Source: an uncultured Gemmatimonadota bacterium (GTDB lineage Bacteria > Gemmatimonadota > Gemmatimonadetes > Gemmatimonadales > Gemmatimonadaceae). Taken from it: 64,000 bases of DNA. The notes under the pieces are model-generated. The model was given only the letters and a program-made list of their open reading frames with translations, had not been told where the DNA came from and made no database searches. A program made the translations under genes and the position numbers. The stretch spans positions 496,001 to 560,000 of the forward strand of contig CADEFN010000001.1 in assembly GCA_902826615.1 (NCBI GenBank), in the 5' to 3' direction. Below, in pieces: positions 5,712 to 12,434 of this stretch. Each line of letters begins with the position of its first letter. Positions within the stretch are counted from its first letter, which is position 1.

Positions 5712-6731
5712 TCACCGATGCGCTGAGAGATTGTAGCGCATGATGCGCCCATGCCGGCCCTCCCGGTCCCGCTCCAGCTCGTACACATCACCCGGCGGCA
5801 CCGGGGTCTCCGCCAGAAAGGCGCCGATGCGAGCGTGTGCTTCGCTGCTGAGTTCGAGCGTGAGCGCGGCCAGGGTGCTGCCGAGGTGTGACGTATTGCG
5901 CGCGCCCGCGATCACGGCGGCGACCCCGGGTTGATCGAGGACCCACCGTATCGCCACCGATCCAATCGACACACCATGTTCGGCACCAACCACAGACAGC
6001 AGGCGGAGCAGCCGCTGAAACCGCTCCCACCCGCCGCACTCGTCGATAATGAGTTTGTACTTGGTGAGTGAACGGTTTTCGAGGGGCTCGGTTGGCTCGG
6101 CGGCTCCAAGCCAGCGCTCGTGGAAGAAGCCACCGGCCAGTGCACCGTAACACAGCAACCCAACGCCGTGTGTGGCACAGAGTGCCTGCATCGCCCCGGC
6201 GGGCCGGCGATCGAGCAGGGAATACTGCACCTGATGTGACACGACGGGGACGCCGGCTTCAATGATCTTCTGCAGCTGTACGGACCCGAAGTTGGTGACG
6301 CCGATGTGCCGGATGAGCCCCTGATCCCGAAGTTGCCGGAGCGCGAGGGCCGCCTGGACAAAGTCACCGGCGTTGTAGTCCCACCAGTGAAACTGCACCA
6401 GATCTATCGATGGCACGCCAAGCCGATCGCGTGAACGTGTGATGATCCGTTCCGCATCGTTGGCGGTATGCGAGCTCAGCACGTCGAGATCGGGGACGTA
6501 CTTGGTATGCACGCGGATCTCGCCGGGTCGTCGGGTGCGGACAAAGTCGCCGATCAGCGACTCGACACCAGTGTAGATGTCGGCACAATCGAAGGTGGTC
6601 ACCCCGGCGTCGGCAAAGGCGGCCATGTCGGCCAGCGCCGCCGCGCGTTCGATGGAGCCGTGGCCCCCGGCCAGCTGCCATCCCCCCTTGATGACCCGGG
6701 AGATGGTGTAGCCGGGAGCGAGTTCAGTCAT
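5712..6731 (-). CDS. Aldo/keto reductase
   Basis: 339 residues from ATG 6731; a TTG four codons earlier is the less likely start. The NADPH-dependent TIM-barrel tetrad is visible: Asp in TTFDCADIYTG (about 48), Tyr 53 of the same segment, Lys in VHTKYVPD (about 77) and His in VQFHWWD (about 115). The later segments HIGVTNFG, GLLCYGALAGG and VAAVIAGARN are also typical. It probably reduces an aldehyde or ketone in the cytoplasm; the substrate is unknown. It lies 28 nt downstream of the exported DinB gene on the same strand. Confidence 0.9.
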   Translation of the reverse strand: MTELAPGYTISRVIKGGWQLAGGHGSIERAAALADMAAFADAGVTTFDCADIYTGVESLIGDFVRTRRPGEIRVHTKYVPDLDVLSSHTANDAERIITRSRDRLGVPSIDLVQFHWWDYNAGDFVQAALALRQLRDQGLIRHIGVTNFGSVQLQKIIEAGVPVVSHQVQYSLLDRRPAGAMQALCATHGVGLLCYGALAGGFFHERWLGAAEPTEPLENRSLTKYKLIIDECGGWERFQRLLRLLSVVGAEHGVSIGSVAIRWVLDQPGVAAVIAGARNTSHLGSTLAALTLELSSEAHARIGAFLAETPVPPGDVYELERDREGRHGRIMRYNLSAHR

Positions 6732-6758
6732 ATCATGCGACAACTATCGCGTCTCGCC

Positions 6759-7927: not shown

Positions 7928-8254
7928 CTACTTCATGGGCACAACCGAGACTTCGTCGTGCCGAAATGTACGAGTGCCGGTGCGCGTAATGCGAAAGCGG
8001 CCTCCGCAATGCGGGTCGGGGCAGGCGATATCGGTATCGGTGGTCATCCAGTCCGCCGGGTCGGTCATGCGCTGCTTGGCCGGGAGAATCGGGAGGAGGG
8101 CAGCGAGGGGGTAGAGGGGGAAACTCTGCCCATCGGGGAACCGGAGGTTCTCGCCCTGCAGCTCGAACCAGGCCCCTGCCGGGTGATTGCAGACCATCGG
8201 CTTGTCCGAGGCGACGACGTCGACGCGGAGATCGTAGAGGGTGAAGGAGTCCAT
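7928..8254 (-). CDS. TIGR04076 family protein
   Basis: 108 residues from MDSFTLYDLRV. The frame stays open upstream to 8659, but that part is low-complexity Arg/Pro/Thr and overlaps the divergent antiporter gene, so the internal ATG is preferred. The pattern DLRVDVVASDKPMVCNHPAG, FELQGENLRFPDG, LYPLAALLPILP and DIACPDPHCGGRFRI matches TIGR04076, a small conserved family of unknown function with conserved Cys residues (CNHPAG and CPDP). The C-terminus adds about 15 residues. It may form an operon with the two DinB genes downstream. Confidence 0.75.
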   Translation of the reverse strand: MDSFTLYDLRVDVVASDKPMVCNHPAGAWFELQGENLRFPDGQSFPLYPLAALLPILPAKQRMTDPADWMTTDTDIACPDPHCGGRFRITRTGTRTFRHDEVSVVPMK

Positions 8255-8369
8255 GGGATTGGAGAGTAAAGCGGGTGTGACGCCGAGGCGAGGGCGCTGG
8301 GCCAGGGCGTGAGACGCCATCGAGCTGTGGAGGCGCACAGGTGCAAAAGCGCGTAGGTTGCCCTCGCTC

Positions 8370-9755
8370 ATGACATCGCTCACTCCTCCAGAGCCGCACC
8401 TCACCTTTCGTGGGGGCACCGCGGGTGCACTGGCTCCATTCCTGGTCTTCCTTGGCGGCGTGGTGTGGCTCGCCCTGGCCGGGGCGCCGGACGAACGTGG
8501 TTTCTGGCCCGTGTTGCTTGCCGCGCTGGCGGTTGGTGTCGTTCTGGCGCGCGAACCGGGGCGATACGCCGACACGGTGATCGCGGCGATGGGGCAGCCG
8601 ATTGTGGCCCTGATGATTGTTGCGTGGCTTCTCTCCGGGGTGCTGGGGACGTTGCTCACCGAGTCGGGGCTGGTGCAGTCGCTGGTTTGGGGGGCGCGTC
8701 AGCTGCATTTGGGCCCGGCGTTGTTCACCGGCGCGGCCTTTGTGGTCTGCGCCCTCGTGTCCACCTCGACGGGGACATCGTTCGGAACCATCCTCGTGGC
8801 CGGACCGCTACTCTACCCCGCAGGCGGCGCGTTAGGCGCACCGCCTGCGGTGCTGATGGGCGCCATCCTCGCCGGAGCGACGTGGGGTGATTCCATCTCA
8901 CCGGTGTCTGATACCTCCATTGCCAGCGCGGGCTCGCAGGGCACCGATGTCCCGGGCACGGTGCGCAGCCGGCTCAAATACGTGGTGCCCGCAGGGCTGA
9001 TGGCGCTGATTGCCAGTGTGCTCCTCGCCGCGCGCGGGGCCGCCATGACCGTGCCGGTAACCGCCACCGAGGGCTCGGCGCGCGCTCTTCCGATGTTGCT
9101 GGTGCCGGTGCTGGTGATTGCGCTGATGGTGCGCAAGCGGCATCTGCTCGAAGGACTTCTCGCAGGCATCGTTTTGGCACTCGCGTTAGGCCTGTCGTTC
9201 GGACTTCTGGCGGCCTCGCGGGTCATGTACATCGATCACGACGCCTTCGGCGCCCGCGGGCTCATCATCGATGGACTCGGCCGAGGCGTTGGGGTGTCGG
9301 TGTTCACCCTGTTGCTGATGGGGCTTGTTGGCGGTGTGCAGGCGTCTGGCGTGATCGAACGTCTGACTGCGGGGCTGCGCACGACCACGACGGGGCCGCG
9401 TGCCAGCGAGGGATGGATCGTCGCGCTCGTGCTCATCGCCGCCCTGCTTACCACGCACTCGGTGGTGGCGATGCTCAGTGTCGGGGCCCTGGTGCAGCAG
9501 ATCGGTGCGCGTGCTGGCATTCATGCCTATCGACGGGCGAATCTACTGGACATGACGGTGTGTACGTGGCCCTTCATACTCCCGTACTTTCTGCCGACGA
9601 TACTGGCGTCGAGTGCCACCGCACAGGCGGTGTCGTCAGGCATGCCGCGGTTGTCGCCCTTCACGATCGGGTTGTCGAACACCTACGCCTGGTCGCTGAT
9701 GGCCATGATCATCTTTGCGATTCTCACGGGGTACGGTCGCGGGACGGACCGATAG
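8370..9755 (+). CDS. NhaC-type Na+/H+ antiporter family membrane protein
   Basis: 461 residues from ATG 8370 (a TTG lies four codons upstream). About eleven hydrophobic segments are visible, including the conserved core FVVCALVSTSTGTSFGTILV, then ILAGATWGDSISPVSDTSI, the signature of the NhaC family, where polar and charged residues line the ion path. The second half contains FTLLLMGLVGGVQASGV and the final helix set ending MAMIIFAILTGYGRG. It is expected to exchange Na+ or an organic cation such as malate-lactate for protons across the inner membrane; the substrate is not determinable. It carries two GTTAGGC heptamers (8831 and 9185), both read as Leu-Gly. Confidence 0.88.
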   Translation: MTSLTPPEPHLTFRGGTAGALAPFLVFLGGVVWLALAGAPDERGFWPVLLAALAVGVVLAREPGRYADTVIAAMGQPIVALMIVAWLLSGVLGTLLTESGLVQSLVWGARQLHLGPALFTGAAFVVCALVSTSTGTSFGTILVAGPLLYPAGGALGAPPAVLMGAILAGATWGDSISPVSDTSIASAGSQGTDVPGTVRSRLKYVVPAGLMALIASVLLAARGAAMTVPVTATEGSARALPMLLVPVLVIALMVRKRHLLEGLLAGIVLALALGLSFGLLAASRVMYIDHDAFGARGLIIDGLGRGVGVSVFTLLLMGLVGGVQASGVIERLTAGLRTTTTGPRASEGWIVALVLIAALLTTHSVVAMLSVGALVQQIGARAGIHAYRRANLLDMTVCTWPFILPYFLPTILASSATAQAVSSGMPRLSPFTIGLSNTYAWSLMAMIIFAILTGYGRGTDR

Positions 9756-9784: not shown

Positions 9785-11554
9785 TCATGGCACTTCGAGG
9801 TATCGCATGTCCAACCGCTCAGCGAGTGTGCGATCGGCGGCGGAGTGGCCCGCGTAGATACTCTGCGCGAAGTCCACGCCGCTTTCCATGGCGAACGCTG
9901 AAATGAGCCCGGGCAGCGGCTTGCGACACCAGCACACCGGTGGCCCCGCATCATGCGGGCACCAGGCCACGTGAACGTCGGCGCCGACGGCCTCCCGCAG
10001 ACGCCACGCCAGTCGCGTCATCGACGTGTTTGGGAGTGTGCCTCTCGCGATCTGTGGACGCCAGAACTGCACCATTAATCGTCTACCCAGCTTTCCATAC
10101 CGCGTGAGGATCTCGAGTGCCGCAGGGTGCAGGGCGCCGTCATCTCCGTCCCGAAGGAGAACATCGCCCTCCATCACCAGGGCACGTTCCGACATGACCG
10201 GCATCGGCTCACGAACAAACGACACCGCGTCGATGTGTTCGAACCCTTCGTCAAGCTCGGGCGCCTCCAGTGTTCGTTCGTACTTGAACAAGGCGTCGGG
10301 ACTCAGAAAGCGCGGATCGGTGCGCCCGAGTTCGCGAATCTCTTCGGGCGACGGGAGATGTCCAAGTGCGCGCAGCATGCGATCCACGGCATTACGCTGT
10401 GCATCGGCGAGTGTGGTCTGCATCCAGATACAACGGACGGGCACCCCATGGCGCCACGCACACTCGATGACATCATTGCGCGCTGCACGAGATGGGTAGG
10501 TGTTGTCGAGCACCCAACGTCGTTCCCCCGCTGCCAGACCGGCATCGAGGAGGGGCACGAGATCGGCCAGCGACCCTCCCGTGGCGTCGCGATTGAGGCG
10601 CCGGTACCCCTCGCTGGCCAGCGCCGCCGAATGGGTGGACTTTCCCGCGCCGGGGATCCCCATGACCAGCACCACATCTCCGGTGGCATCGTCCGCCGGA
10701 CGACGTGCGGCCTGAGGCGTCCGCAGCAACTGCCCATTCGCCGAGCGGTCCAACTGCTGTAGCTCGTTTGTTGTAAGCGTCAGGTGTGCAAGGTCACCGA
10801 GTGAGCGAGCACTTTCAGGGCGAGTGGCGCCTGGAATGGGCACCACACCCGCACCAAAACTTGCAAGCCAGGCGAGTGCGACGAGTGGTGGGGTGGTCTG
10901 GTGTGCGTCGGCAATGGCGCGCAGCGCCACACGCTTCTCCAGCTGCCAGATCTTGTCGCCTCCCAGTGGGCGATGGGCAATGAGCTGGATGCCGTGTGCG
11001 AGACAGAAGGCCGCAACACCGTTGCGAAGGATGGTGTCATCGAGCAGCGACCAGCTCACCTGCACTGATGCCACCTCCACCATCTCCATGGCCTCCTTCA
11101 GCTGGCCGAGTGTGACGTTGGAGAGTCCGACCCGCTGCACCAGTCCGTTCTTTCGCAGGGCAGCCAGGGCGCGAATGCCGGTCGTGAAGGGTGTTCGCGG
11201 ATCGGGTGTGTGCCACTGATAGAGATCGATGCACGAGACGCCCAGCCGCTTGAGTGACGCCTCACAGGCGCCACGCAGATACGAGGCTTTGCCGTTAGGC
11301 GTCCACTCGCCACGTGGCCGGGTGAGCCCACCCTTGGTGGCCACCACCACCCCACTCCGGTCACCCGACCATGTGCGCAGCGCCTCGGCGACGAGGAGTT
11401 CGTTATGTCCGAAGTCGGCGTCGGAATGACAGTAGGCGTCGGCGGTATCGAGCAGGGTGACACCGGCGTCGAGGGCCGCATGTATCGTGGCAATGCCACG
11501 GTCGTGGTCGCGGTCCTTTGCCGTGGAGAGTCGCATGCAGCCCATTCCGATCAT
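9785..11554 (-). CDS. Three-module fusion: aldo/keto reductase, P-loop kinase, HAD-like domain
   Basis: 589 residues from MIGMGCMRLST; the frame is open to 11689 but that part runs into the divergent gene. Residues 1-275 are an aldo/keto reductase with tetrad Asp36, Tyr41, Lys74 and His115. Residues 293-450 are a polynucleotide-kinase-like P-loop domain: GIPGAGKST (299-307), RLNRDATGG, and LDNTYPSRAARNDV followed by RCIWMQT. Residues 455-589 resemble HisB/GmhB-type HAD phosphatases, with the Cys/His zinc-like segment CPHDAGPPVCWCRKPLPGL. The expected DxD near the start reads MEGD and the GDS-xx-D motif reads GHSAAD, so phosphatase activity is doubtful. The kinase-HAD pair occurs elsewhere as an independent unit; its fusion to a reductase is the oddity. 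Confidence 0.8.
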   Translation of the reverse strand: MIGMGCMRLSTAKDRDHDRGIATIHAALDAGVTLLDTADAYCHSDADFGHNELLVAEALRTWSGDRSGVVVATKGGLTRPRGEWTPNGKASYLRGACEASLKRLGVSCIDLYQWHTPDPRTPFTTGIRALAALRKNGLVQRVGLSNVTLGQLKEAMEMVEVASVQVSWSLLDDTILRNGVAAFCLAHGIQLIAHRPLGGDKIWQLEKRVALRAIADAHQTTPPLVALAWLASFGAGVVPIPGATRPESARSLGDLAHLTLTTNELQQLDRSANGQLLRTPQAARRPADDATGDVVLVMGIPGAGKSTHSAALASEGYRRLNRDATGGSLADLVPLLDAGLAAGERRWVLDNTYPSRAARNDVIECAWRHGVPVRCIWMQTTLADAQRNAVDRMLRALGHLPSPEEIRELGRTDPRFLSPDALFKYERTLEAPELDEGFEHIDAVSFVREPMPVMSERALVMEGDVLLRDGDDGALHPAALEILTRYGKLGRRLMVQFWRPQIARGTLPNTSMTRLAWRLREAVGADVHVAWCPHDAGPPVCWCRKPLPGLISAFAMESGVDFAQSIYAGHSAADRTLAERLDMRYLEVP

Positions 11555-11651
11555 CCCGGAATCATGGCACGAAGGCGGTGGTCGGGAAACGGGGACTCGT
11601 TGCATTTCGGGTGGCCGAGCGCGACACTCCAGTGACCCTCTCCCCACACGC

Positions 11652-12434
11652 ATGCGCCTCGTTGTGCTGCTCGCCCTGATTGCGCCCACGCTTGGTGCTC
11701 AGGCCATCGACCTCACGCGGTACCGTGTGGTCGACCTCACACACAGCTTCAACGCCAGAACGCTCTATTGGCCGACAGCAACAACCGGGTTCAAGCTCGA
11801 CCAGCTGTCGTATGGGCCCACACCCGGCGGGTGGTTCTATTCGTCGTATGCCTACGCCGCGCCTGAGCATGGCGGCACACATCTCGACGCCCCTATCCAC
11901 TTCGCCAAGGACGGCCTGACCGCGGACCGTATTCCGGTGGAACAGTTCATCGGACCGGCGGTGGTCATCGACATCTCGGCGCAGTCCGCAAAGTCGGCTG
12001 ACTACCGGCTCACACGGGCCGATGTCACGGCATGGGAGCGGGCCAACGGCGCAATCCCGCGTGGCGCCATGGTAATCCTGCGCACCGGGTGGTCCATGCG
12101 CTGGCCCGACGCGAAGAGTTACCTGGGCGACAACAAGCCCGGTGATGCCTCCAACCTGCACTTCCCGAGTTATGGCGAAGAAGCGGCGCGCTATCTGGTG
12201 ACCGACCGCAAGGTGGCAGCGTTAGGCGCTGACGTGGCGTCGATTGACTACGGTGCGTCGAAGGACTTCATCGTGCATCAGGTGGCGGGGCGGGCTGGGG
12301 TGCTGGGGCTCGAGAACCTCGCCAATCTGGGAGTCTTGCCACCAAAAGGGGCCACGATCATCGCGCTGCCGATGAAAATCGAAAACGGCTCGGGGGGACC
12401 ACTGCGCGCGATTGCGCTGGTGCCAAGGCGTTAG
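11652..12434 (+). CDS. Exported cyclase-family (KynB-like) hydrolase
   Basis: 260 residues. ATG 11652 gives a signal peptide (LVVLLALIAPTLGA-Q); upstream in-frame codons run into the divergent gene. The metal-binding signature HGGTHLDAPIHF is intact and VVDLTHSF marks the family N-terminus. PKGATIIALPMKIENGSGGP closes the fold, as in KynB-like arylformamidases and cyclases. These enzymes hydrolyse amides or lactones with a divalent metal. Periplasmic location argues against tryptophan catabolism as the main role. It ends CGT-TAG inside a GTTAGGC heptamer and is divergent from the fusion gene. Confidence 0.88.
   Translation: MRLVVLLALIAPTLGAQAIDLTRYRVVDLTHSFNARTLYWPTATTGFKLDQLSYGPTPGGWFYSSYAYAAPEHGGTHLDAPIHFAKDGLTADRIPVEQFIGPAVVIDISAQSAKSADYRLTRADVTAWERANGAIPRGAMVILRTGWSMRWPDAKSYLGDNKPGDASNLHFPSYGEEAARYLVTDRKVAALGADVASIDYGASKDFIVHQVAGRAGVLGLENLANLGVLPPKGATIIALPMKIENGSGGPLRAIALVPRR

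Follow-up and report, generated by a model that had tools for sequence, protein, structure and literature searches.

An aldo/keto reductase fused to a PNKP-type kinase and a degenerate HAD domain: a candidate enzyme for healing oxidised DNA ends

A 64,000-nucleotide stretch of DNA from an uncultured Gemmatimonadota bacterium of the family Gemmatimonadaceae (assembly GCA_902826615.1, contig CADEFN010000001.1, positions 496,001 to 560,000), here called the window, carries a gene (9785-11554, minus strand) that joins an aldo/keto reductase (AKR), a kinase of the type found in PNKP and a HAD phosphatase-like domain in one protein. The same three-part gene was found in several phyla, at times beside genes of DNA-break repair, which suggests an unrecognised, one-protein healing of oxidised DNA ends. 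We read the protein as a putative DNA-end-healing enzyme in which a PNKP-like 5'-OH kinase and HAD gained an N-terminal NADPH-dependent AKR, and put the probability of this sequence-based reading at about 0.5. Each part is familiar by itself; the combination, with its probable role, is new as far as the open-access literature shows, in which no description of an AKR-PNK fusion was found.

Domain architecture of the fusion gene

The translation of the gene is one uninterrupted frame of 589 aa in which the AKR, kinase and HAD domains follow one another from the N to the C terminus. Conservation was scored on an alignment of 49 members from Gemmatimonadota, Acidobacteriota, Actinomycetota, Dormibacterota and Myxococcota. 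The gene and its parts are as follows.

9785-11554 (-): whole gene, AKR - PNKP-type kinase - degenerate HAD, 589 aa; start ATG at 11554, stop at 9787-9785; open frame and full-length orthologues
10730-11554 (-): aldo/keto reductase domain, residues 1-275
11210-11449 (-): stretch with the AKR tetrad D36, Y41, K74 and H115, invariant in 49/49 members
10199-10684 (-): PNKP-type P-loop kinase, residues about 291-452
10637-10660 (-): Walker A motif GIPGAGKS, residues 299-306; G304 invariant, K305 nearly so
10478-10507 (-): DNTYPSRAAR, residues 350-359, aligned to the DNTxxxxSR motif of PNKP
9788-10189 (-): HAD-IIIA domain of the PNKP/GmhB/HisB type, residues about 456-589, catalytically degenerate by its motifs
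10163-10174 (-): MEGD, HAD motif I (DxD), Asp nucleophile replaced by Glu462
9926-9961 (-): CPHDAGPPVCWC, CxH...CxC zinc knuckle (C532, H534, C541, C543), retained in nearly all members though the catalytic Asp is lost
9833-9850 (-): GHSAAD, HAD motif IV (GDxxxD), first Asp replaced by His

The ATG at 11554 was taken as the start because in one orthologue (L174) an upstream stop lies just one codon from the conserved start. Other genomes carry this three-domain frame too, free of internal stops, so it is neither a chance frame nor a frameshift artefact. The AlphaFold2 model of the full-length protein had a mean predicted local distance difference test score (pLDDT) of 95.1 and a predicted template modelling score (pTM) of 0.90, a confident prediction of the three domains as a single unit.

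In the kinase, Pfam AAA_33 matched residues 294-394 (1e-10), and the best named model was NCBIfam PNK-3'Pase TIGR01663 (residues 285-446, 1e-18), which scored 67 bits over the kinase part only and so missed the equivalog cut-off of 502.8 set for the whole protein. A profile of the kinase-HAD module hit both the kinase (3.7e-24) and the phosphatase (3.5e-7) of mouse PNKP, with GmhB and HisB next. The module was also modelled alone (pLDDT 92.8, pTM 0.85); its top Foldseek/VIA matches were PNKP and then GmhB and T4 Pnkp, the last over both domains. The PNKP kinase (1yj5) matched with Z 17.2, a root-mean-square deviation (rmsd) of 1.9 and 38% identity over 144 residues. T4 Pnkp gave Z 13.9 and rmsd 12.4 over 246 residues, the rmsd being high because its domains sit differently. 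Further kinase motifs were RLNRD and LDNTYPSRAARN, and D323, D350, T352, R359, N388 and R392 were invariant. The Walker A motif, NRD general base, DNTxxxxSR motif and lid arginine of PNKP kinases are all present at aligned positions and conserved. By these residues the kinase is of PNKP type with its catalytic residues intact, and the module matches T4 Pnkp in order and fold over both domains. 5'-OH polynucleotide kinase activity is predicted.

The AKR domain matched Pfam Aldo_ket_red (PF00248) over residues 2-270 (3.2e-52; 177.8 bits against a gathering score of 24). Its best structural match was AKR13B2 (8hnq; Z 33.5, rmsd 1.6 over 255 residues). The Pfam score, the (beta/alpha)8 fold and the tetrad place the domain in the AKR superfamily, and NAD(P)H-dependent carbonyl reduction is predicted for it. 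Two residues, Arg8 and Arg128, are specific to the fusion.

The initial annotation of this frame had described a three-part fusion with a complete reductase tetrad, an intact PNK-type P-loop kinase and a HAD domain whose Asp motifs were altered (MEGD, GHSAAD) while the CPH-CxC segment was kept. All of this was borne out by the Pfam and NCBIfam domains, the full-length orthologues in other genomes and the residues listed above, and the second Asp of motif I (D464) proved to be retained as well. The annotation had also asked for an architecture search, which yielded about 50 independent fused members; its condition for abandoning the fusion, that homologues are always separate genes and this frame an assembly error, is thereby ruled out.

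A second AKR gene, this one stand-alone (window 5712-6743, minus strand; PF00248 1.7e-65), is found 3 kb from the fusion gene and shares its strand. Its product is about 35% identical to the fused AKR.

Distribution and origin of the fusion

Within the Gemmatimonadaceae, the fusion was present in 8 of 179 genomes; a sample of the phylum gave 3 of 298, two besides the window. In a scan of 84,980 species genomes with an alignment as query, full or nearly full fusions numbered about 25; they came from Gemmatimonadota, Vicinamibacteria, Thermoleophilia/Solirubrobacterales, Dormibacterota and Myxococcota. Targeted searches found it in 4 of 299 Thermoleophilia, 8 of 232 in one order, 15 of 235 Myxococcota and 10 of 193 Vicinamibacteria. 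The last count includes two loci (L170 9314-10252 and L171 9487-10425) that matched the kinase-HAD part only; these could either have lost the AKR or represent a pre-fusion form. Leifsonia loci with apparent long matches were rejected as fusions, since they hold two stand-alone AKR genes in tandem.

When compared with 81 stand-alone AKRs, the fused AKR domains (49/49) formed one separate clade (support 0.995), which points to one fusion at the origin of the AKR-kinase-HAD gene.

Plasmids gave no matches, and no relative was found in the scan of viral contigs. The kinase-HAD module without an AKR, with intact HAD motifs, was present in two jumbo phages, LR756511 and LR756500 (595 and 462 kb):

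8001-8930 of locus L113 (LR756511): two-domain kinase-HAD protein, PNKP-like kinase, HAD intact
7983-8936 of locus L114 (LR756500): two-domain kinase-HAD protein, PNKP-like kinase, HAD intact

Degeneration of the HAD domain

The HAD domain of the window copy resembled GmhB in structure (3l8e; Z 16.0, rmsd 2.3 over 136 residues), and the NCBIfam GmhB/HisB models matched residues 464-586 below cut-off (36.6 bits against 178). Its nucleophile, motif II and motif IV are lost, so that the DxD, S/T, K and GD residues of a PNKP 3'-phosphatase are not found as a set. Its zinc knuckle, which reads CPH(x6)CWCRKP, is kept. By its motifs the domain has lost phosphatase chemistry in the window's lineage, where the zinc-knuckle HAD probably has a structural or end-binding role.

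Degeneracy of the HAD is widespread in the family but not original to it. All of its catalytic residues (DxDGT, SNQ, K, GDxxxD) were kept in 9 of the 49 members, all Myxococcota, and were absent as a full set from the other 40; in the Actinomycetota clade motif I is gone altogether with the zinc knuckle retained. The nine intact members formed a single clade (support 100/100), and in two of them (L201, L204) the zinc columns were out of alignment. Mean pairwise identity within the intact clade was highest in the HAD (52%, against 47% for the AKR and 50% for the kinase). It was lowest in the HAD in Gemmatimonadota (57%, against 69% and 67%) and in Actinomycetota (62%, against 69% for both). The phosphatase domain has decayed in most lineages, with the zinc knuckle and the two other enzymes conserved.

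Three Myxococcota genomes carried two fusion genes each (L196/L197, L200/L201 and L190/L203). Two of these three pairs combine an intact with a non-intact HAD.

Gene neighbourhood

All neighbouring frames were clustered without prior choice of families. Apart from the fusion itself and shadow frames, the only family found in all four lineage groups was the LigD PrimPol, the polymerase of bacterial non-homologous end joining (NHEJ). Of 55 fusion loci, 7 had it in their flanks, where copy number, genome size and flank length predict 0.30 (Poisson P about 4e-8, or 8e-7 with two related Solirubrobacterales loci counted once; these values are post hoc and uncorrected for the number of families, the clustering itself being unbiased). 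None of 54 stand-alone AKR loci had it nearby. In one locus (L185) the PrimPol ATG lies inside the 3' end of the fusion, with a 14 bp overlap; in another (L044) the gene follows the fusion after a gap of about 107 bp; in a third (L045) LigD PrimPol, PolX and the fusion stand in this order on one strand; and in L040 both an ATP-dependent ligase and LigD PrimPol are nearby. The PolX assignment is confined to L045. A seeming PolX piece in L044 was due to the query, whose 5' part overlapped LigD PrimPol in a different frame, and it disappeared with a trimmed query.

At the level of genomes, LigD PrimPol was present in 8 of 8 Gemmatimonadaceae with the fusion against 85 of 171 others (Fisher P 0.005, uncorrected for kinship or genome size). 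In the window's genome Ku adjoins LigD, with its polymerase and phosphoesterase (PE) domains, on another contig.

In a Deltaproteobacterium (L069 1916-2575) a gene of the SRAP family, which binds apurinic/apyrimidinic (AP) sites, directly follows the fusion. This would fit a link with abasic sites or aldehydes.

Proposed function

The homology to PNKP over both domains, the intact-HAD relatives in Myxococcota and phages, and the NHEJ polymerase neighbours in some lineages point to the healing of polynucleotide ends, most likely of DNA. A polynucleotide is the probable substrate of the fusion, and between the two nucleic acids we lean towards DNA rather than RNA. In the proposed mechanism, oxidation of the sugar at C5' would break the strand and leave a nucleoside-5'-aldehyde, which the AKR would reduce to a 5'-OH. 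The kinase would phosphorylate this 5'-OH, the HAD, where intact, would take off the 3'-phosphate, and a ligase (LigD in NHEJ bacteria) would seal the break. In the window's lineage the 3'-cleaning could come from LigD's own phosphoesterase. The product of the AKR would then be exactly the substrate of the kinase, which would explain both the fusion and the joint conservation of the two active domains. C5' breaks also leave a 3'-phosphate, which would explain the ancestral HAD.

PNKP-type kinases work on 5'-OH ends and PNKP HADs on 3'-phosphates, and the nucleoside-5'-aldehyde (5'-al-dN) is a major, stable and abundant sugar-oxidation end from C5' oxidation, the only repair described for it being non-specific and of the long-patch type (PMC12564780). 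As substrate of the AKR it is the most economical choice, held tentatively. Another aldehydic end, such as a 3'-phospho-unsaturated aldehyde (3'-PUA), a 5'-deoxyribose phosphate (5'-dRP) or an AP site, is distinctly less likely. The activities described for LigD are polymerase, 3'-phosphoesterase and ligase, with no kinase (PMC8656161). A dedicated, direct repair of nucleoside-5'-aldehyde DNA ends, in which AKR, kinase and HAD (or the LigD phosphoesterase for the 3'-phosphate) make ligatable ends and supply NHEJ with a 5'-kinase, is a speculative extension, less likely than not. If true, one protein would turn a C5'-oxidised break into ligatable ends and provide the 5'-kinase not described for bacterial NHEJ. 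A carbonyl reductase and a 5'-kinase on one chain make a concrete and easily assayed candidate for such repair.

The initial annotation had proposed a two-step modification of one substrate, and this part fits. It had left the choice between nucleic acid and small molecule, and a sensor-effector design, undecided; the evidence now points to polynucleotide end healing.

Several observations weigh against this reading. The window copy itself lies away from repair genes, between a Na+/H+ antiporter-type permease and a cyclase; 48 of the 55 fusion loci have no LigD gene in their flanks; and in two others (L165, L194) the LigD gene is 5-6 kb off with unrelated genes between. Genomes of the intact-HAD clade had no LigD PrimPol above cut-off, no PE domain and no Ku, so the fusion can do without NHEJ. 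Some degenerate HADs, too, come from genomes without a PE domain (G1083, G1032, G1008, G835, G304), and a replacement of the HAD by LigD is therefore not general. We rejected the pairing of an intact HAD with absence of LigD as independent evidence: since the intact members form one clade, the contrast represents one evolutionary event and is suggestive only. Finally, the nearest structures to the AKR domain are small-molecule enzymes.

The cyclase gene beside the window copy (window 11646-12434, plus strand; PF04199) is divergently oriented and about 100 bp from the fusion gene. The putative cyclase has an apparent signal peptide by eye.

Alternative explanations

One alternative is a role in small-molecule metabolism, in which the AKR would reduce a carbonyl metabolite (a sugar, an aldehyde or a pyridoxal-like compound), the kinase would phosphorylate the resulting alcohol and the HAD remnant would be structural. 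The closest AKR structures are AKR13B2, perakine reductase and the pyridoxal reductase PdxI; P-loop kinases of related fold with small-molecule substrates (gluconokinase, APS kinase, PFKFB) appeared lower in the structural lists; and GmhB and HisB also belong to HAD-IIIA. However, the kinase is nearest to PNKP (33-38% identity) and retains NRD and DNTxxxxSR, the HAD too is homologous to the PNKP phosphatase, and the phage kinase-HAD proteins are classed under nucleic-acid repair. The recurrent neighbours are repair polymerases and no metabolic pathway. We consider this explanation unlikely.

Another is repair of RNA: a T4 Pnkp-like enzyme would heal, for example, cleaved tRNA, and the substrate of the AKR would be an oxidised RNA end or an unrelated aldehyde. 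T4 Pnkp works on RNA and DNA alike. The module is present in jumbo-phage relatives (LR756511, LR756500), and two-domain kinase-HAD proteins of jumbo phages have been assigned to RNA repair (PMC7824862). On the other hand, the recurring neighbours of the fusion are DNA repair genes (LigD PrimPol, PolX, ATP-dependent DNA ligase, SRAP), no RNA ligase was recognised among the scanned neighbours, in which no search was aimed at RNA ligases, and the kinase is nearer to PNKP, an enzyme of DNA repair, than to T4 Pnkp. We consider RNA repair rather improbable.

It is still less probable that the AKR senses NADPH or an aldehyde, like the AKR-fold Kv-beta subunits, and switches the polynucleotide kinase. 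The prediction of the three domains as one unit would suit such a design, and Kv_beta was among the AKR models at a sub-cutoff score, but the invariance of the tetrad across 49 divergent members fits catalysis better than a purely sensory role. Fusion of two or three genes by assembly or frame error can be dismissed, because dozens of genomes, each assembled separately and together spanning five phyla, carry this frame unbroken, one of them as a single contig of 10.3 Mb (G998); the broken frames of L069 and L068 are as in metagenome assemblies, and nothing was found in favour of an artefact.

Comparison with known systems

Among the closest known systems, eukaryotic PNKP (TIGR01663; 1yj5, 3zvl) is homologous to the fusion in the kinase, where both have NRD and DNTxxxxSR, and in the HAD-IIIA phosphatase domain. 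The fusion differs in that the kinase precedes the HAD, the reverse of PNKP, in the zinc knuckle of its HAD and in the added N-terminal AKR. The HAD of the window copy is inactive by motif, and the FHA domain of PNKP had no match in the Pfam scan of the fusion protein. T4 Pnkp and the jumbo-phage kinase-HAD proteins have the kinase-then-HAD order in one chain, like the fusion, and lack the AKR. For the LR756511 protein, whose HAD is intact, the alignment covers 98% of the module at 30% identity, whereas T4 Pnkp is far more distant in sequence (12-14% in structural alignment). GmhB and the N-domain of HisB share the HAD-IIIA fold with the CxH...CxC zinc knuckle; unlike them, the window copy has neither the Asp nucleophile nor motifs II and IV, and it falls below all GmhB/HisB cut-offs. 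The stand-alone AKRs of the PdxI/AKR13 neighbourhood are 43-48% identical to the AKR domain with an identical tetrad, but they are unfused and lack both Arg8 and Arg128. In bacteria, Deinococcus DRB0098 joins a 5'-polynucleotide kinase to a phosphatase and is encoded beside an ATP-dependent ligase in a putative repair operon (PMC1997131); its phosphatase is of the HD rather than the HAD type, and the AKR is absent.
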